Part shown: one piece after another, positions 753 to 19,676 of the stretch
How positions within the stretch are numbered: the first letter of the stretch is position 1
Layout: each line of letters starts with the position of its first letter
Assembly (NCBI RefSeq): GCF_014873765.1
Contig: NZ_JADBGG010000008.1
Location: forward strand, 1-64,000
Direction: 5' to 3'
DNA from: Desulfomicrobium macestii
GTDB taxonomy: Bacteria; Desulfobacterota; Desulfovibrionia; Desulfovibrionales; Desulfomicrobiaceae
DNA length: 64,000 nucleotides
Made by a program: the position numbers and the translations under genes
The notes under the pieces: generated by a model
Database searches by the model: none
What the model was told of the DNA's origin: nothing
What the model saw: the letters and a program-made list of their open reading frames with translations, nothing else

Positions 753-926
753 GCGGTCCGGTTCGTCCCGGTCAAGGCGCGCCGACTGTCTGATTGAGCC
801 AGGCATCGTTTGCTGAATCGTTGCCAAACGTCCGGCCCCGGCCTCGCGCGCCACCACGCAGCGGCTCAGCATTACGAGGCCCGCGAAAGAGTTTCGGCGG
901 GTCTTGACCGGGGCGGACCGGATCGC
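753..926 (+). repeat. structured repeat element, complete copy 1
   Basis: This 174-nt element has 33-nt outer arms at 753-785 and 894-926. They pair as 28 Watson-Crick pairs, 4 G-U pairs (on plus-strand RNA) and one mismatch. Inside lie a conserved left segment (786-811, containing GAGCCAGGCATCG), an imperfect inner stem (812-823 with 859-870) and a conserved right segment (871-893, containing TTACGAGGCCCGCGAA). The arm sequence differs from the other copies, but its position and length do not. No protein-coding function is suggested. I do not recognise the family. Confidence 0.8.
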
Positions 927-9216: not shown

Positions 9217-9366
9217 GTCATTCCCGCGCAGGCGGGAATCCTGCCTTGACCAGACGAATCTTGAAAATCGGGGGATGGATCCCCGCCTGCGCGAGGATGA
9301 CGCACCCACCACGACGCATAGTCTCCCTGATGCCGCCGGATGGATCCCCGCCTGCGCGGGGATGAC
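9217..9366. repeat. REP-type palindromic repeats, three copies
   Basis: Three imperfect palindromes of about 25 bases share the core CCCCGCCTGCGCGGGGATGAC or its complement. They lie at about 9217-9240 (inverted), 9274-9301 and 9340-9366. Two further copies lie at 14440-14528, on the other side of the ABC operon. They are typical extragenic palindromes of proteobacteria; spacing is irregular, which argues against a CRISPR array. Confidence 0.75.
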
Positions 9367-9403: not shown

Positions 9404-9853
9404 GCACAAGCCCGAGCGGTGCGGTTCGTTGCGGCAAGGGCCGCCGACTGTCTGACTGAGCCAGGCATCGTTGGCTTCCCCGTCGTCCCGGGCACCGCCT
9501 CTTCCACCCTCCATCAATCTCAACTCAACCACCACGTTCTCACCCCCGACTCTTCAACGGCTTCGCCCCTGCACAAGCCCGAGCGGTTCGGTTTGCGCCT
9601 TACAAGGTCCGTCGACTGTCTGACTGAGCCAGGCATCGTCGGTTTCCACGTCGTCCCGTCCATCCCTTGCTCAAGCCCGAGCGGTCCGTTTTGCGCCGGG
9701 AAGGGCCGCCGACTGTCTGACTGAGCCAGGCATCGTCGGTTTTCCCTGTCGTCCCACGTCCATCCCTTGCTCAAGCCCGAGCGGTCCGTTTTGCGCCGGG
9801 AAGGGCCGTCGACTGTCTGACTGAGCCAGGCATCGTTGGCTTCCCCGTCGTCC
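9404..9853 (+). repeat. array of four left modules of the structured repeat
   Basis: Four left halves of the structured element stand in tandem, starting near 9408, 9575, 9673 and 9773, so the last two spacings are 98 and 100 bases. Each has AAGCCCGAGCGG, a variable arm, the conserved segment CTGTCTGACTGAGCCAGG, then a variable inner-stem strand ending near CGTCGTCCC. The third and fourth copies have identical arms. Only one right half follows (9885-9956). Confidence 0.8.
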
Positions 9854-9884
9854 CCCGCCTGACCCTGATCGTTCGCCCTGCACG

Positions 9885-9956
9885 CGACGGGGAAGCCTTA
9901 CGAGGCCCGCGAAGGAGTTTCGGCGGGCCTTGTAAGGCGCAAACCGGATCGCGACG
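9885..9956 (+). repeat. right module of the structured repeat
   Basis: This half contains the inner strand CGACGGGGAAGCC (9885-9897), which pairs perfectly with 9838-9850 in the fourth left module. It continues with the conserved segment 9898-9919 and an outer arm at 9920-9952. The outer arm pairs over 33 positions (29 Watson-Crick, 4 G-U) with the second left module (9583-9615), not with the nearest one. The region from 9957 to 10092 shows nothing else. Confidence 0.75.
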
Positions 9957-10816: not shown

Positions 10817-13180
10817 ATGCGCGCCCTGAACGTCAAACTCCTGCGCGACCTGTGGTCCATGAAGGGGCAGATGGCCGCCGTGGCCCTGGTCATGTCCTGC
10901 GGCCTGATGGTCATGATCATGGCCCGCGGGCTGGTCATGTCCCTGGAGACGGCCCGGGACGAGTACTACGCCTCCCACCGCCTGGCCCACGTCTTCTGCG
11001 ACCTCAAGCGCGCCCCCAACGCCATCGGGACGCGCCTGCGGGAGATCGACGGCGTGGCGTCCCTTGAGACGCGCATCAAGGGCGCCCTGACCCTGGACCT
11101 GCCCGGCCTGGCCGAACCGGCGGACGGCCTGGTCCTGTCCCTGCCCGACGGCCGGGAGACGGAGGTCAACCGCCTGCACCTGCGCCAGGGGCGCCTGCCC
11201 GAGCCCTACAGCCCGGACGAGGTCGTGGTCAGCGAACCCTTCGCCAAGGCCCACGGCTTCGTCCCCGGCCACACCTTGGAGGCCACCATCTACGGGGCGC
11301 GGACTACGCTGCGCATCGTCGGCGTCGGCATGTCGCCGGAGTACGTGTACGAGACGCGGCCCGGCGAGACCGTGCCCGACAACCGCCGCTACGGCACCTT
11401 CTGGATGAGCGAAGGGTCCCTGGCCGACGCCTTCATCCTCAAGGGCGCCTTCAACAGCGTCATCCTGACCCTGGCCCCCGGAGCCGAAACCGGTCCCGTG
11501 AAGAAGGACCTGGACCGTATCCTGGCCCCTTACGGCGCGCTGGTGGCCTTCGACCGCTCGGAGCACGTCTCGACCAAGCTCATCGACGACCGCATCGCCA
11601 TGCTCAAGGGGTTCGCCATCGCCTTCCCGGTCATTTTCCTGTCCATCGCCGCCTTCATGACCAGCGCGGCCCTGACGCGGCTGGTCCGCCTGCAGCGCGA
11701 GCAGATCGCCCAGCTCAAGGCTTTTGGCTACTCCTCGGCGGACGTGGGCCTGCACTATTTCCAGTTCGCCCTGGCCGCCGTCGTGGCCGCCACCCTGCTG
11801 GGCTCCGTGGTCGGCCTGTGGCTGGGGCAGAATCTGGTGGAGATCTACCGCCGCTTCTTCCAGTTCCCGAACCTCGTCTTCCGGCCCGACTGGTGGGCCC
11901 TGGGCCTGGCGTTGGCCGCCAGCGCCGGAGCGTCCTTCATCGGTGTGCTCGGGGCCGTGCGCCAGGCCGTGAAGCTGCCCCCGGCCGAAGCCATGCGGCC
12001 CGAGCCGCCGACGCGCTTCGAGCCGTCCGTGCTGGAGCGCATGGGCCTTTTGCGCCTGCTCTCGCCCATCCAGCGCATGGCCCTGCGCAACCTGGAGCGC
12101 AGGCCCTGGCAGGCCTTTTTCACGGCGCTGGGCCTGGCCATGGCCACGGCCATCCCCATCGTGCCCGGGGCCATGGGCGACGGCATCGACTACCTCATGG
12201 ACTTCCAGTGGCGGCTGGCCCAGCGCCAGGACGCCACCGTATCCCTCATCGAACCCGCCTCCCCGGCGGCCCTGCACGCCCTGGCGGCCATGCCGGGGGT
12301 GCTGCACGTCGAGCCCTTCCGCGTGGTGCAGGGCCGCATCGTGAACGGCCTGCATGAGCGCCGCGTCGGTCTGACCGGGCGCCTGCCCGACGCGCGCCTG
12401 AACCTGCTCCTCGACGACAAAGGGCGGGCCGTGGAGCTGCCGCTGGCGGGCCTGCTCCTGTCCGAGAAGCTGGCCGAAGTGCTGGAACTTGCGCCCGGGG
12501 ACCCGGTGCGCATCGAGGTCCAGGAAGGACGCCGCCCGGTGCTTGAAACCTTCGTGGCCGGGACCATCACGGATTTCGCCGGGGTCGGGGCCTACATGGA
12601 CTTCCACGCCCTGGGCCGGCTCATGGGCGAGGAGCGGGTCGTCAGCGGCGCGCACCTGACCCTGGACAATACATATCGAAGCGAGTTTCTGGACGCGGCG
12701 GCGGACACCCCGGCCATCGCCTCGGCCGTCTTCACCTCCTCGGCCCGCGAGAGCTTCCAGCTGGCCATGGGCGACATGATGGGCGTGGTGCAGGCCGTCT
12801 ATTTCGGCTTCGCCATCATCGTGTCCTGCGGGGTGGTCTACAACGGGGCGCGCATCGCCCTGTCCGAACGCACCCGCGACCTGGCCACCCTGCGCGTGCT
12901 GGGCTTTTCCGAAGCCGAAACGACCATGATCCTGCTCTCGGAGCTCATCTTCCTGACCCTTGCGGCCCTGCTGCCTGGACTGCTGATCGGCAGCGAGATG
13001 GCCCGGGTCCTGGTCCTCACGGCCAACACCGAGTCCGTACGCATGCCGCTGGTGCTGACCGGCAGGGCTTATGCCACGGCCGTGCTCATTGTCCTCTCGT
13101 CGTCCATGGCGTCCTTCCTGGTGGTCGGACGCCGCATCAGGAACCTGCAACTCCTCGCCGTACTGAAGGCTCCCGAATGA
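10817..13180 (+). CDS. ABC transporter permease, double FtsX domain
   Basis: This 787-residue membrane protein has one N-terminal membrane helix, a large extracytoplasmic domain, a first FtsX block (about residues 260-400), a second soluble domain, and a C-terminal FtsX block (about 660-787). It partners the ATPase upstream and the membrane-fusion protein downstream. Such permeases act as mechanotransmission devices that drive export from the periplasmic side. Its length and repeated layout match the large FtsX family rather than the short MacB form. It overlaps the next gene by 4 bases. Confidence 0.9.
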
Positions 13181-14388
13181 ACACTACGCGCAGGCGCCGT
13201 CCGTGGCGCATCCTCCTCTTCGTCCTTCTGTGCCTCGCCCTGGCCGCGCTCCTGATCGCGGGCTTCTGGCCCTCGCCCCTGCCCGTGCAGACGGGGCGGG
13301 TGGCCAGCGCGCCCATGACCGTCAGCGTGACCGAGGAAGGCAAGACGCGCATCCGCAGCCGCTATGTGGTCTTCCCGCCCACTGCGGGGTTCCTGCGGCG
13401 CGTGGAGCTGCGCGCCGGGACGCGGATCATGGCGGGCCGGACCGTGCTGGCCGTGCTCACGCCCGAGGCCTCGACCTTCCTGACCCCGCGCGCACGGGCC
13501 GAAGCCGGGGCCAGGCTGGACGCGGCCGAGGCCGCCGAGCGCGTGCGCCGGGCCGAGCGCGAGCGCGTGGCCACGAGCCTGGAGCTGGCGCGCACGGACC
13601 TTGCGCGCCTGGACGCCCTGCTGAAAAGTGGCGCCGTGGCCCAGCAGGAATGGGACAGGGCGGAGAACCAGGTGCGCGTGCTGGAGCGGGAGCTGCAGGC
13701 GGCGACCTTCGCCCTGCAGGTGGCCGGGCACGAGACCCGCGTGGCCCGGGCGGCCCTGAGCCGGGGCGCCGCGCCAGGCCAGGACGAGGCCGTGCCCATC
13801 CTGGCCCCGGTGGACGGGTACGTCCTGGCCGTCATGGAGGAGAACGCCCGCGCCGTGGCCGCGTCCACGCCCATCATGGAGGTCGGCGACCCGCGCGACC
13901 TGGAGATCGAGATCGAGCTGCTCTCGACCGACGCCGTGGCCGTGAAGCCCGGGGCCGAGGCGGCCATCGCGCACTGGGGCGGCCAGGGGGAGCTGCGGGC
14001 CCGGGTGACGGTGGTGGAACCCGGAGGGTTCACCAAGGTCTCGGCCATCGGCGTGGAGGAGCAGCGGGTCAAGGTGCGGGCCGAACTCATGGACGACCTG
14101 CCTGAAGGGGTCATGCTCGGCGACCGCTACGGCGTGCAGGCGCGCATCGTCACCTGGCGCGGCGAGGACGTGCCGCAGGTGCCGACGAGCGCCCTGTTCC
14201 GACGCGGCGGAAAGTGGATGGCCTTTGTGCTGGACGCCGGCAAGGCATGGGTGCGGACGGTGGAGATCGGCCGAGAGAATGGCCTGCATGCCGAAGTGCG
14301 GGACGGGCTGAAGGAAGGCGAACGGGTCATCCTGCATCCGCCGGATACGCTCGCGGACGGGATGCGGGTCAGGGAGGAGGGGCAATGA
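13177..14388 (+). CDS. membrane-fusion (HlyD/MacA-like) periplasmic adaptor
   Basis: This 403-residue adaptor has an N-terminal signal anchor (about residues 7-27), a lipoyl-like half, a long Ala/Glu/Arg-rich coiled-coil hairpin (about 100-195), the second lipoyl half (APVDGYVLAVMEENARAV), and beta-barrel and membrane-proximal domains. It would bridge the ABC permease to the outer membrane. No outer-membrane factor gene accompanies it, so a shared TolC-type channel is likely. The ATGA overlap with the permease indicates coupling. The substrate is unknown. Confidence 0.9.
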   Translation: MNTTRRRRPWRILLFVLLCLALAALLIAGFWPSPLPVQTGRVASAPMTVSVTEEGKTRIRSRYVVFPPTAGFLRRVELRAGTRIMAGRTVLAVLTPEASTFLTPRARAEAGARLDAAEAAERVRRAERERVATSLELARTDLARLDALLKSGAVAQQEWDRAENQVRVLERELQAATFALQVAGHETRVARAALSRGAAPGQDEAVPILAPVDGYVLAVMEENARAVAASTPIMEVGDPRDLEIEIELLSTDAVAVKPGAEAAIAHWGGQGELRARVTVVEPGGFTKVSAIGVEEQRVKVRAELMDDLPEGVMLGDRYGVQARIVTWRGEDVPQVPTSALFRRGGKWMAFVLDAGKAWVRTVEIGRENGLHAEVRDGLKEGERVILHPPDTLADGMRVREEGQ

Positions 14389-14528: not shown

Positions 14529-14655
14529 ACGTTGGTTTCCCGGGCATTCGGAGCAGGAATCGGCAGATGGCGGATACCTGCCGTCCCGAACCCGATCTTT
14601 CCTTCGTCCCACCCAACGCCCGATCTTTCCTTCGTCCCGCCAACGCCAGGTCCGA

Positions 14656-14830
14656 GCGTGTCGGGCGGTCTCCGGCGAGGGTCGTCGACTGTCTGACCGA
14701 GCCAGGCATCGTTTGCTTCCCGGCCGTGTCCGTTCGAAGCGCCGCCCAATGCCCAAGACTCAAGGCCGGGAAGCATTACGAGGCCAGCGAGGGAGTTTCG
14801 ACGGCCCTCGCCGGAGACCGCCCGGCACGC
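14656..14830 (+). repeat. structured repeat element, complete copy 3
   Basis: This is the clearest copy. The outer arms 14656-14688 and 14798-14830 are each 33 nt and pair as 31 Watson-Crick plus 2 G-U pairs. An inner 11-base perfect stem joins 14715-14725 to 14764-14774. The conserved internal segments match the other copies (TGACCGAGCCAGGCATCG and TTACGAGGCCAGCGAGGG), while both stems have different sequences. It has the same orientation as the other copies. The bases from 14831 to 14931 show nothing recognisable. Confidence 0.85.
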
Positions 14831-14931
14831 GACCGCACTGATACAGCCCCATCACGCCCGGGAAAGGATCTCCACAGAAACATTGCTACAGGGACCACCA
14901 ATCCCCCCGACGCCCCCGCACGTGCTCAGAA

Positions 14932-17900
14932 CTACAGCCCGTGCACGAACACCCGGTCTTCCATCCCCATCTTGCGGGCCATGTCCGCGATCTGGGCCTG
15001 GTGGGTGAACATGATGATCTGGTTGCTCCCAGCCATGCCGGCGAACACGTCGAGGGTGGCCCTGGCCCGCTCTTCGTCGAAATTGATGAGGATGTCGTCG
15101 ACGATGAAGGGCATGGCCTCCGCGCTTTGCAGGCGCAGCTGCAGGCTGGCCAGGCGCAGGGCCAGGTAGAGCTGGTCCCTGGTGCCGGAGCTCATGCCCT
15201 CGACCCGCACCAGAAATCCGTTTGAACGCACGCCCATGAGAACGGGCCTATCGCCGTCGTCGATATCCGCCCGCAGCGCGGCAAACGAGCCCAGGGTCAG
15301 GTCCTTGAACAGGCCGGAGGCGATGGCCAGCAGCGGGTCCTGGTGGGCGGCCCGGTAACGCTCGATCTCGGCGCGCAGCACCCGGGAGGCGAGCTTGAGC
15401 CGGATGAAGCTGTCCGTCAGGCGCGCGATGCGGGCCAGAACCTCCTGCATCTCCTCGGCGATGCGCGCGGCGGCGTCGTCGCCGTTCATGCGCGCCAGCT
15501 CGCTTTTTTCCTGGCCCACCCGCTCCGCCAAAGGCCCGGTCCGCGGCCTGACCTCCTCATCGAGCTCCGCGCGCAGGGCCGCGATCCTGCCCGGCAGGGC
15601 ATCGGCGTCCTGCCCGGCGGCCAGCGCCTCCAGATCCTGCAAGGTGCCGCCCTCGGCCATGCCGGCCAAGGTCGATTCGACCTCGTGCAGATCACGGCGC
15701 ACCTCGGCATACTCGGCAAAACGGCGCTCGGCCGCGTCCATGCACTCGTCGTCCGCGCAGTGCGACTGTAGACGCAGGGCGGCCATGCCTTCGTCCAGAA
15801 GCCGCAGCTCCTCGCGCAGGACGCGGACAGTCTCGTGCAGGGCGGCCTTTTCCTGGGCGTGCCGCATGGAGACGGCCTGGTCCCGAACGGCCTGGGCCAG
15901 AAGGCCCTTGAGCCGCGCCACGGCCAACGCCGCATCGAGCTCCTTTTCGTCCGGGGCGATCAGGGCGGCGAGCTCCCGCACGCTGTTCTCGAAGGCCCGC
16001 GCGTCGCGCTCGATGCCCTTGAGGCGCTTGCGCAGCACATCCTCTTCGTGGAGCTTGGCCAGGCACTCCTGCACCGTCTCCACATAATCGGCGGCCTCGT
16101 CCGGGGACGCGCCGTCAGGCAGGCCAAGAGAGCCCAGGGCCTCATCCCAGGCCTGCCGCCACTCGTCCAGATTCAGGCGGGCGGTCTGCACGTTCGCTTC
16201 GGCCTTGTCCCGGGCCGCCTCCAGCTCACGGACCGACCTGGCCAGGGCTTCGCGCCTGGAGTTGGCTTCGCGCAGGCTGTCGACCACGGCCTGGGCCCGG
16301 CGCACCACCACCTCAAGCCCGGTCCCCGGCAGGGGCGGCTGCTCCTGCGCCGCCGCCAGCTCCCGCATCAGCACGGCCCGCAATTCCTGTTGCCGCGCCT
16401 GCCCGGCCCGCACCTCGGCCTCGATTCTGCCCAGTTCCTCGACCTGCAGGCGCAGGGCCTCGAAATTGCCCAGCCAGGCCCGCATCTCGCGCGGGCCAAG
16501 GGGGATGATCGAGCTTGCGGCCCACTGCTTACGCCAACGCGCCAGAAGATCCTCGCGCGCCTGGCGCGAGATTTCCGACCTGCGGCACAGCTCGTCCAGA
16601 TTCCGGCTCGCGGCCTCGATCCCGGCCAGAAGCTGGCCGTGCTTCTGCACCCGGTCCGCTTCGCGGTACATGCGGTCGGCGGTCTGGTCGGCCAGCTCCA
16701 CGCTCTCTTCGTACGCCTCGGGCAGGGGCCGCTCCGGCGCATAGAGAAGGCTTTCGCGCGTCACGTCCTCCCCATCGAGCCAGCACCGGCGCAGCAGCGA
16801 CCAGCCCTCTTCGCGGCGGGCGCGGCAGCCGGCCAGCTCGGTCTCCGACGGGACCACGGAAGCGTGCTCGATGGCGCGCAACTCCCGGTTCAGGTTGGCC
16901 AGCTCCTGGCTCAACCGCTCCTCTTCGACGGAATGCCGCCGCAGCTCCTCGTCCACCTGGTGCAGCGCCTGCTCGAATTCATTCACGGTCTCGGGCAACG
17001 GCAGGCGGACCCCCGCCACCCCGTCCAGGGTTCCGTCCCACAGCCCGAGGCGCTGCAGGGCGGCCTGACAGGCGCCCCGGGCCCGCAGCAGATCCGCGCG
17101 GCGGCGTTCCAGTTCGCCGTCCAGGTCACCGGCCTTGAGCACCAGATTGAGGGCCTGGATCAGGGCCCCGGCCTCGGCGGCCGGACCCGCGGCGGCCAGC
17201 TCGGCCTTTTTGCCCTCGAGCTCGCGCTGCACCTCGCGCAGTCGCTGTTCGGTTTGGCGGACCTCCTGCAGCACGGCCTCACGCCGCTGCCCAAGGGTCT
17301 GGACCGACTTGCGCCTGGCCAGCCCCGGGCGCAGGCTTTCGGCCTGCCCGACGTCGAGGTCCGGCCGGATGCGGCGCAGGAGCTGGGCCGCTTCGGTCTT
17401 GTAGGCCACGCGCATGCCTTCGAGGCCGGGGAAATCCTTCTGGCCCTTGCGGTACTCGCCCAGACGCTGATGCAGATCCTCGATGTCGTCGGCATGGTCG
17501 AGGACCGCCTGGTTCAGACCGGCGGCAACCTGCATGCCCTCAAGCTCGGCCAGCCGCTGCAGCGCGCCTTCCAGACGGACCTTGGCCAGTCGCCGCTCTT
17601 CATCCAGCTGCCGCCGTCTGGCGCCGAAATCATCGGGCAGGATTACAACCTCACCCATAACTTGAAGTTTTTCGAGCAGCAGATTCCGCCGGCCCAGAAA
17701 CGGCAAGGCCCGTCCCAGGCGCTCCAGCCGGTGGATCTCGCGCTCCAGCTCAAGGCCCCGGCTGGTCAGGACGCGCAGCTCCTCCTCGGCCTGGGCCAGG
17801 GCCTGGCGGTGCCTGGTCCACTCCTGGCTGCCCAGGCTGGCCTGGCGCAGGCGCGACTGCAACTCCTTGTAATGCGCGACGGCCAGGTTGATCTCCCGGC

Positions 17901-18435
17901 TGGTGGCCTTTGGCCGGAACAGCCCGTCGGCCTCGCGCTCAAGACCGTCGATGACGGCCCGAAGGGACGCGAAGCCCGCTCCGGCCGAAAACAGGGCCTG
18001 CCCGATCTCGCCCTCCTGATCGAGGATGCTCTGCCCTCCCTGGACAAGGGTCTCGTGATTGATGCCGTACATGCTGGAAAAAAGGTCCTGCCCCAGCCCC
18101 TGCAAATACGGGGCGAGGGCCTCGGCGGGGAGGGGCTGGTCCTGCGCGTCGAAGAGGTCGTTCCTGTTCTTCTTGCGCCGGTAAAAACATAGCTCGTCGC
18201 CGTCGGCGCGCTGCAAGCAGCCGCCGACCAGCAGCTGGTCGTAGGCGTGCAGGAAATTGTCGCCGGTGCGGGGCGGGAACCCGTAAAAAAGGGCCTGCAG
18301 CGCGCGCATGGCGCTCGATTTGCCCGCCTCGTTGGGACCGTGGACAACGTGCAGCCCGGGCAGGGCCGAATCAAAATCCAGCACACGGTCGCTGAACGGG
18401 CCGTAGGCCTTGAATTCCAGACGCCTGATTTTCAT
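14932..18435 (-). CDS. YhaN/SbcC-like AAA ATPase with coiled coils
   Basis: This 1167-residue SMC-like ATPase probably works with the nuclease encoded just upstream in DNA end processing or repair. The N-terminal Walker A region is GPNEAGKSSAMRAL (about residues 35-48). Long Glu/Arg/Leu-rich coiled coils fill the middle, and the C-terminus carries the signature SSGTRDQLYLALRLA and Walker B PFIVDDILINFDEE. This layout matches the YhaN family more closely than canonical SbcC. The start at 18435 forms an ATGA overlap with the upstream stop. Confidence 0.88.
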   Translation of the reverse strand: MKIRRLEFKAYGPFSDRVLDFDSALPGLHVVHGPNEAGKSSAMRALQALFYGFPPRTGDNFLHAYDQLLVGGCLQRADGDELCFYRRKKNRNDLFDAQDQPLPAEALAPYLQGLGQDLFSSMYGINHETLVQGGQSILDQEGEIGQALFSAGAGFASLRAVIDGLEREADGLFRPKATSREINLAVAHYKELQSRLRQASLGSQEWTRHRQALAQAEEELRVLTSRGLELEREIHRLERLGRALPFLGRRNLLLEKLQVMGEVVILPDDFGARRRQLDEERRLAKVRLEGALQRLAELEGMQVAAGLNQAVLDHADDIEDLHQRLGEYRKGQKDFPGLEGMRVAYKTEAAQLLRRIRPDLDVGQAESLRPGLARRKSVQTLGQRREAVLQEVRQTEQRLREVQRELEGKKAELAAAGPAAEAGALIQALNLVLKAGDLDGELERRRADLLRARGACQAALQRLGLWDGTLDGVAGVRLPLPETVNEFEQALHQVDEELRRHSVEEERLSQELANLNRELRAIEHASVVPSETELAGCRARREEGWSLLRRCWLDGEDVTRESLLYAPERPLPEAYEESVELADQTADRMYREADRVQKHGQLLAGIEAASRNLDELCRRSEISRQAREDLLARWRKQWAASSIIPLGPREMRAWLGNFEALRLQVEELGRIEAEVRAGQARQQELRAVLMRELAAAQEQPPLPGTGLEVVVRRAQAVVDSLREANSRREALARSVRELEAARDKAEANVQTARLNLDEWRQAWDEALGSLGLPDGASPDEAADYVETVQECLAKLHEEDVLRKRLKGIERDARAFENSVRELAALIAPDEKELDAALAVARLKGLLAQAVRDQAVSMRHAQEKAALHETVRVLREELRLLDEGMAALRLQSHCADDECMDAAERRFAEYAEVRRDLHEVESTLAGMAEGGTLQDLEALAAGQDADALPGRIAALRAELDEEVRPRTGPLAERVGQEKSELARMNGDDAAARIAEEMQEVLARIARLTDSFIRLKLASRVLRAEIERYRAAHQDPLLAIASGLFKDLTLGSFAALRADIDDGDRPVLMGVRSNGFLVRVEGMSSGTRDQLYLALRLASLQLRLQSAEAMPFIVDDILINFDEERARATLDVFAGMAGSNQIIMFTHQAQIADMARKMGMEDRVFVHGL

Positions 18436-19676
18436 GCGCCCTCCTGCAGCCGGGACAAGAGCAGATCCCTGACCTCGTCGCGCAGCATGGCCAGCCCCTC
18501 CCCGTCCGGGCCGAAGGGATCGGCGTCCCCCAGCAGCTCGGCGGGAAGCTTGGAGCGCAGGGCCTCGAACTCGGGCACCATTTCCGTCAGCGGGGATGCG
18601 TCGAGGCGCAGCTGCGCGATGGCCTGCACCAAGCCGCCGAGCGGGGAATCGGCATCCGGGGCGGCGTCGGAGGCCAGGGGTTTCGTGGCGATGCGCAGCT
18701 TTTCGAGCCACACATCGCCCAGGTCCGCGGCCATGATGCGGAAGTCATCGCGCAGGCGCTCCTCCATACGATGCAGCTCTTCATGCAGGGCGCTGCGCCC
18801 CTCGAGCACGACCCGCAGCGCCACGGGGCGGCCTTCGGCGTCGCGCCGCTCACGCTCCATGGCCTCGCGCACGCGGTCGGCCACGGCTTCGATACGCTCG
18901 CACGGCGCGAGGTCCACCCGGCAGAGCGCGAAACGCAAGACGTCGAGGCACCGGAATTCCGCGTCCGTGATCCGCCCGTCCTCGACGGTGACGATCCGGC
19001 AGCCCTTGGCCCCGGCTTCGCGGATGTGCCGGGCCTGGATGTTGCCGGAAAAGACCACCCACGGATGGGTCTGCACGACCTCACCCTGGTGCACATGCCC
19101 CAGCGCCCAATAATCGTAGCCCTTGGAGGCCAGGCCTTCCAGCGTGCACGGGGCGTAGGGCTCGTGCCCGGCGCGGCCGGTCAGGCTGGTGTGCAGCAGG
19201 CCGATGTTGCACAGGCCGGGCAGGGCCTGCGGATAGGCGCGGCTCAGATCCTCGGTCACGCTGCGCCCTGCGAAGCTCTGGCCGTGGATGGCCACGCCCA
19301 GCTCATCAAGCGTCCTTGTCTCCGGTTTCCTGTGGGAAAAGATGGTCACGTTGTCCGGCAGGCCGAGGGCGCGGGTCAGGGAGCTGGCCGCGTCATGGTT
19401 GCCGGAGACCAGGAAAACCCTGATGCCCGCCTCGCGCAGGCGGCCCATGCGGTGGGTGAAGTACAGACCGGTGTTGTAGTCCTTCCAGTCGCCGTCAAAA
19501 AGGTCCCCGGCCAGCAGGACAAAGGCCACGCCTTCGTCGATGGCGAGGCTGACCAGGTTGTCGAAGGCCCGCCGCGCGGCCCCGCGGATCTGCTCCACGG
19601 GGGCGTCGGGGTAGGATTCAAGGCCCCTCAGGGGGCTGTCGAGATGGATGTCGGCGGCATGAATGAAGCGGAACAT
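18432..19676 (-). CDS. YhaO/SbcD-like metallophosphoesterase nuclease
   Basis: This 414-residue calcineurin-like phosphoesterase has the full Mre11/SbcD metal motifs in order: ADIHLDSP, LLAGDLFDGDW, VSGNHD, and the late GHVHQGE. The C-terminal part probably docks on the ATPase encoded downstream. Together they form a bacterial Mre11-Rad50-like pair of the YhaO-YhaN type. The two genes overlap by 4 bases. The ATG at 19676 follows AAGGGT. Its role in repair is inferred from the family. Confidence 0.9.
   Translation of the reverse strand: MFRFIHAADIHLDSPLRGLESYPDAPVEQIRGAARRAFDNLVSLAIDEGVAFVLLAGDLFDGDWKDYNTGLYFTHRMGRLREAGIRVFLVSGNHDAASSLTRALGLPDNVTIFSHRKPETRTLDELGVAIHGQSFAGRSVTEDLSRAYPQALPGLCNIGLLHTSLTGRAGHEPYAPCTLEGLASKGYDYWALGHVHQGEVVQTHPWVVFSGNIQARHIREAGAKGCRIVTVEDGRITDAEFRCLDVLRFALCRVDLAPCERIEAVADRVREAMERERRDAEGRPVALRVVLEGRSALHEELHRMEERLRDDFRIMAADLGDVWLEKLRIATKPLASDAAPDADSPLGGLVQAIAQLRLDASPLTEMVPEFEALRSKLPAELLGDADPFGPDGEGLAMLRDEVRDLLLSRLQEGA

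Follow-up and report, generated by a model that had tools for sequence, protein, structure and literature searches.

A family of dispersed hairpin elements in Desulfomicrobium with a strand-specific fold and an orientation that follows replication

A hairpin element and its fold

We analyzed the first 64,000 nucleotides of contig NZ_JADBGG010000008.1 of Desulfomicrobium macestii (assembly GCF_014873765.1; hereafter the window) and found that a hairpin at positions 14656 to 14830, here called element 3, belongs to a family of similar elements dispersed over the chromosome. For this family there is good support for a selected fold that is specific to one strand and maintained at old chromosomal sites; its copies appear to be kept folded by natural selection, in an orientation that tracks replication and not transcription. 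The copies likely act as RNA, and we tentatively regard them as a dispersed intergenic hairpin family that may act at the RNA level on sense transcripts.

Each element is one long hairpin, made up of variable outer arms (about 30 bp, mostly ungapped across copies), a conserved bipartite core, a variable inner stem of up to 13 bp, and a loop. The left and right cores face each other, forming short helices with small internal loops that include GA opposite GA. In copies from the genome of the window (G000; 4,499,618 bases in 99 contigs), the loop spans 30-33 nt after a fixed stem region of 18 + 16 nt; it is longer in copies from other genera. The parts of element 3 are given below, together with its match to R1, a covariance model built from 30 copies of G000.

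14656..14830, + strand, complete element 3 (the finding); R1 match at 14664-14822
14656..14688, + strand, outer arm, 5' side; 31 Watson-Crick (WC) and 2 G-U pairs with 14798-14830
14686..14711, + strand, conserved left core; overlaps the final three arm bases
14715..14727, + strand, inner stem, 5' side; 13 alignment columns, of which 11 bp pair cleanly
14762..14774, + strand, inner stem, 3' side; pairs with 14715..14727
14777..14800, + strand, conserved right core; overlaps the initial three bases of the 3' arm
14798..14830, + strand, outer arm, 3' side; arm pairing recounted

An earlier note, made from the letters of the window alone, had described three element sets that share two conserved internal segments and have arms of different sequence that pair. 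A base-by-base recount reproduced the claimed pairing in each set (753-785 with 894-926, 28 WC, 4 G-U, and 1 mismatch; 9583-9615 with 9920-9952, 29 WC and 4 G-U; 14656-14688 with 14798-14830, 31 WC and 2 G-U), the positions of the two conserved segments agreed, and all ten wobbles of the three arm pairs are G-U in the plus orientation only. The second set carries a qualification: its right arm pairs best with 9583-9615 and not with the adjacent left half, whose best 33-nt window gives 22 WC, 3 G-U, and 8 mismatches. The stretch 14646-14840 is predicted to fold at -129 kcal/mol (z = -9.9), better than 200 of 200 dinucleotide shuffles; its minus strand also folds strongly (-121 kcal/mol, z = -7.1).

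Covariation and strand-specific wobble across the genome

The left core has 39 exact matches genome-wide (15 forward, 24 reverse), compared with none for a backward-read control. Model R1 returned 57 rows in G000, seven of which are reverse-strand shadows of the palindrome, leaving 50 places, 46 of them full length; a copy census, with one copy containing N set aside, counted 40 complete copies and 8 left cores without a right core.

In an alignment of 30 copies from G000 (A2), 90.3% of cells are paired, compared with at most 43.8% when slid, and changes on both sides with pairing kept occur in 38 of 51 pairs. A second alignment, A5, drew its 37 copies from several genera and was fitted to the structure, toward which it is therefore biased; it gave 94.5% compared with at most 46.0%, with both-side changes in 46 of 51 pairs. 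The covariation that the earlier note had described for both the outer arms and the inner stem holds genome-wide.

The wobble asymmetry was counted in plus orientation among 71 non-redundant arm pairs from three genomes (filtered to copies with 18 or more WC pairs among 28 arm positions, arms within 2 differences removed): these contain 1583 WC, 114 G-U, 7 A-C, and 71 other combinations, with more G-U than A-C in 53 arm pairs and the reverse in 3. Where both neighbouring genes are antisense to the element (14 arm pairs), the counts were 22 G-U and 0 A-C. Of 77 copies, 69 are predicted to fold better in the sense strand than in its complement under RNA parameters, and 72 under DNA parameters.

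Maintenance of the fold at orthologous sites

Many copies occupy common sites in three species. Between G015 and G009, both flanks match for 31 of 39 G015 copies and, in the other direction, for 36 of 44; against G000, both flanks match for 22 of 39 (G015) and 26 of 44 (G009). In the 27 orthologous pairs of G015 and G009 (flanks 94.2% identical), divergence was 2.7-3.2% in the cores and 1.7-2.7% in the inner stem, and reached 7.4-8.1% in the arms and 9.9% in the loop.

Across 53 orthologous pairs (7 of 60 dropped for having more than 14 arm differences; the three genome pairs are not independent), 55 positions, many of them isolated, had exchanged one WC pair for another. Among one-sided changes, 96 were between WC and G-U and 13 between WC and A-C (p = 8e-17 pooled, with shared lineages; 36 to 6 for G015 and G009 alone, p = 3e-6), and the fold is therefore maintained in place. 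Mutation bias was rejected as the source of this asymmetry because loop transitions between orthologues are balanced (C/T 73, A/G 70). The strand-specific excess of G-U over A-C noted in the window is thus found genome-wide and among orthologues alike.

Element 3 itself lies between a gene of the HlyD type (13177-14388, +) and an ATPase gene of the AAA_27/SMC type (14932-18711, -). The element beside the AAA_27 gene is common to G000, G013, G006, G014, and G012, with the right arm lost in G012 and the HlyD-type gene not adjacent in G014 and G012; G006 differs by two adjacent compensated pairs. There is no room for an element at this site in G001, and none was present in the 230 bases inspected of G008. 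In G009 and G015 the element core appears inverted relative to the tips. A different site holds an element in G015 and G012 (similar tips, largely different arms) and a tip remnant in G009, and is empty in G000, G002, G006, G008, G013, and G014.

Since the core appears inverted at the element 3 site in G009 and G015, inversion between arms probably happens. The earlier note had offered arms copied from each other as an alternative to a selected structure; copying alone does not explain the G-U excess, and inversion is not the sole source of arm complementarity.

Distribution of the family

Among 61 genomes (G000 and 60 relatives), scored on the best 49 candidates per genome (a related survey used the best 150), R1 matched 24 genomes from 7 of 18 genera, with 1 to at least 49 matches per positive genome. 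Matches occurred in 11 of 16 Desulfomicrobium genomes (G000, G001, G002, G006-G009, and G012-G015); none was found among the best 49 candidates of G003-G005, G010, and G011. A broader model, R2, matched 4 of 395 phylum genomes (G000, G131, G401, and G420) on the best 7 candidates per genome, so that the 391 misses are weak evidence of absence. G131, G401, and G420 belong to one genus, listed only as of the same phylum, with best E values of 1e-6 to 2e-9. No element match was obtained in the viral collection by exact pattern or in the phage and plasmid collections with one 131-base query, and at 12 loci in other genera no shared neighbour gene was seen by eye from open reading frame (ORF) starts.

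Two side observations concern other copies. Seven stretches from G131, G401, and G420 (L312, L313, L314, L316, L317, L319, and L321) fold into a hairpin of this design, its core AT-rich and its arms long, and G026:C1:527427-528286 holds a tandem array of four copies at a spacing of about 226 bp.

Orientation relative to genes and replication

Neighbours were called with a simple codon-usage script, by which 3 of 129 element rows lie inside a called ORF; these rows include one element twice (L018 = L199), which is double-counted in the context and flank-matching counts. In the 113 rows with both genes called, 52 contexts are convergent, 57 tandem (31 with the element in sense, 26 in antisense), and 4 divergent. 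As a small baseline, gene pairs of the window with a gap of at least 60 (39 called genes) are convergent in 4 cases, tandem in 14, and divergent in 6.

The switch in element orientation falls close to the top dnaA match, at 3.507 Mb in G015 and at 3.446 Mb in G009, and GC skew in most loci is consistent with a switch near dnaA. With a fitted terminus, 32 of 37 and 33 of 41 sites (tandem copies merged) follow replication. A pooled test of the replication bias gave p = 7e-10, tandem and orthologous copies not being independent. Gene orientation was rejected as the cause of this bias, as genes in the same loci number 104 leading and 88 lagging and the tandem contexts split 31 to 26. For the analysis of strand sense by orientation the terminus was placed opposite dnaA; copies in the minority orientation have 8 G-U and 2 A-C.

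Promoters, terminators, and partner proteins

At gathering score, Rfam returned no match in the whole window. A scan of one element at E<=10 gave 4 weak hits, all far under gathering score, and a scan of 8 loci at E<=1 gave one unrelated hit; these are chance-level hits, and the earlier description of the element as an unrecognised family stands accordingly. The open-access literature searched, mostly without full texts, held no description of this hairpin element.

Arm tips are loosely alike between copies; beyond them, conservation upstream is scattered and weak in 55 copies. The element lacks the T-run that directly follows the hairpin of an intrinsic terminator: TTTT occurs within 20 nt after the arm in only 3 of 78 copies, and T makes up 5-13% at positions 21-40 after the core.

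Reverse transcriptase (group II intron or retron) was rejected as a resident partner, as RVT_1 had no match in G001, G006, G015, and G041, each with at least 41 element matches. Y1_Tnp was found in many element-rich genomes and had no match in the element-bearing G002, G007, G014, and G041, each of them a draft assembly in 160-510 contigs. The distance from Y1_Tnp to the nearest element is about 40 and 78 kb in G015; in G000, Y1_Tnp lies 120 kb from the nearest element or on element-free contigs. A RAYT/Y1 transposase was not adopted as the partner, although it may yet be one.

Possible modes of action

One strand of each copy is under selection, at its own site, to form a long rod, and the copies are oriented relative to replication. 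The conserved core may be where a protein or nuclease binds or processes the fold, and because the arms would only have to be paired in order to present this core, they could drift through compensatory change. We tentatively propose that the fold forms in transcripts that pass through the element in its sense direction, mostly against the replication fork, and that it would tag them for processing or termination close to the 3' ends of genes.

Several points weigh against this proposal. In 26 rows both neighbouring genes run opposite to the element, and sense RNA could arise there only through antisense or read-through transcription. Promoter scores upstream gave no overall signal (6.2, compared with 6.6 on the other side and 5.7 for shuffled sequence), and no binding or partner protein was found, Y1_Tnp and RVT_1 not strictly tracking the element. 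The 53 orthologous pairs also contain 42 one-sided changes between WC and other mismatches, by which pairing is imperfectly held. G-T is a milder mismatch in DNA too, and an orientation that tracks replication fits a DNA-level explanation equally. What stands of the selected RNA structure suggested in the earlier note is the selected strand-specific fold, with RNA as its likely functional form.

Given the lack of an overall promoter signal and the replication-linked orientation, the functional form could instead be a folded DNA strand (a single-stranded hairpin or cruciform) whose core is recognised by a recombinase or a chromosome-organising protein, an explanation that we consider doubtful. 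As with integron attC sites, the stronger-folding strand would be held on the leading-strand template, the position in which it is exposed as a single strand least often; a study of sedentary chromosomal integrons gives such a placement of the attC bottom strand in 25 of 30 cases (PMC5371416). The better folding of the sense strand under DNA parameters agrees with this explanation, whereas no partner recombinase was found, and continuing selection for pairing at many old sites would not follow from a fold-limiting orientation alone. A wider formulation, which we rate as rather unlikely, takes the elements as a replication-oriented nucleic-acid device at about 50 chromosomal places per genome, in which the fold would intercept fork-opposing transcripts or the folded strand would be kept away on the leading-strand template, with arms of almost any pairing sequence.

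It is improbable that the copies are relics of mobile elements (of the REP type or miniature inverted-repeat transposable elements, MITEs) without present function, their arms matched by inversion, gene conversion, or past mobility. Multiple copies, patchy occurrence, gains and losses such as the site filled in G015 and G012, reduced to a remnant in G009, and empty in six genomes, the core apparently inverted between arms, and tandem and half copies all speak for relics. Ungated decay, however, predicts equal G-U and A-C changes, and the explanation is already weakened by the 96 to 13 seen among orthologues; the cores and inner stem also diverge more slowly (1.7-3.2%) than the arms and loop (7.4-9.9%) between G015 and G009. 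Very unlikely in our judgement is a small-RNA gene in every copy, driven by a promoter of its own. This would account for the retention of the sense-strand fold regardless of neighbour orientation, and in copies antisense to both neighbours the best promoter score is 7.3 sense-upstream compared with 5.5 on the other side (11 copies). Against it stand the overall promoter scores, the merely scattered conservation past the arm tip, and the lack of a T-run after the arm in most copies.

Comparison with known systems

The nearest known systems, compared by description and not by sequence, are the ERIC, bcr1, and NEMIS-type repeats, which are likewise short, intergenic, multi-copy, and foldable. 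The element differs from these in arms that vary yet pair and in an orientation set by replication. The literature on such repeats reports effects of ERIC and NEMIS RNAs on mRNA stability or RNase III processing (PMC2229807) and partial transcription of bcr copies (PMC3446304). REP/BIME sequences with RAYT resemble the element as intergenic palindromes in many copies, at times in tandem, but the element is much longer and Y1_Tnp is absent from the four element-bearing drafts named above. The REP head, GT(A/G)G (PMC2817692), stands at both ends in only 4 of 78 element copies, so that the element lacks this defining feature of REPs.

The shared terminal inverted repeats of MITEs or insertion-sequence ends are lacking, as the arms differ between copies while pairing; filled and empty sites were seen, with flanks too diverged for a junction or target-site duplication to be read. 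The R-box of attC sites is GTTRRRY. This motif is present in 0 of 78 copies, its partner in 1 of 78, and both in none, so that the element lacks this feature of attC sites. Variable stem sequence, a conserved one-strand fold, and a folding strand on the leading-strand template are features that attC shares with the element, according to the integron study (PMC5371416); the element differs in being dispersed, and the loci listed show no cassette array. Structured RNAs of Rfam also have covarying helices around a conserved core, and the element differs from them in lacking a family match at gathering score in the window. We regard the copies as a new family of dispersed hairpin elements whose features are unusual, and place it in none of the REP, attC, MITE, terminator, or ERIC/bcr1/NEMIS groups.

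The family offers a natural experiment on structure without sequence, in which the outer arms drift nearly as fast as the loop with pairing and strand sense held; as these are held at many orthologous sites, selection on the fold is measurable site by site. If the elements do act on head-on transcripts or through a folded DNA strand, they would tie intergenic repeats to the direction of replication, a link testable in the cultivable sulfate reducer Desulfomicrobium baculatum, which has been described as non-pathogenic (PMC3035215). The work also yields covariance models of the family, for which no Rfam match was found.

Other copies and features in the window

The remaining copies in the window are as follows.

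753..926, + strand, complete element 1; 28 WC, 4 G-U, and 1 mismatch; R1 match at 761-918
9412..9490, + strand, left half without right half (core 9445)
9580..9658, + strand, left half without right half (core 9613)
9583..9615, + strand, left arm of the upstream left half with core 9613, which pairs best with the element 2 right arm; 29 WC and 4 G-U with 9920-9952
9677..9755, + strand, left half without right half (core 9710)
9780..9952, + strand, complete element 2; left core 9810-9835, right core 9899-9922; imperfect adjacent left arm; R1 match at 9788-9945

Three left halves without right halves (cores 9445, 9613, and 9710) thus lie upstream of the complete element 2 (core 9810), with one further left half between the best-partner left half (core 9613) and the complete element. 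Such tandem left halves upstream of a complete copy, here at 9412-9755, also occur at L001, L002, and L008 of G000. A separate short REP-like palindrome, CCCCGCCTGCGCGGGGATGAC, occurs at window positions 9346, 14447, and 14508, near two elements. A transposase ORF (HTH_Tnp_1) at 290-640 adjoins element 1, and positions 645-682, upstream of this element, repeat the stretch 3' of its right arm (915-951), as though a further element copy had been split by the entry of an insertion sequence.
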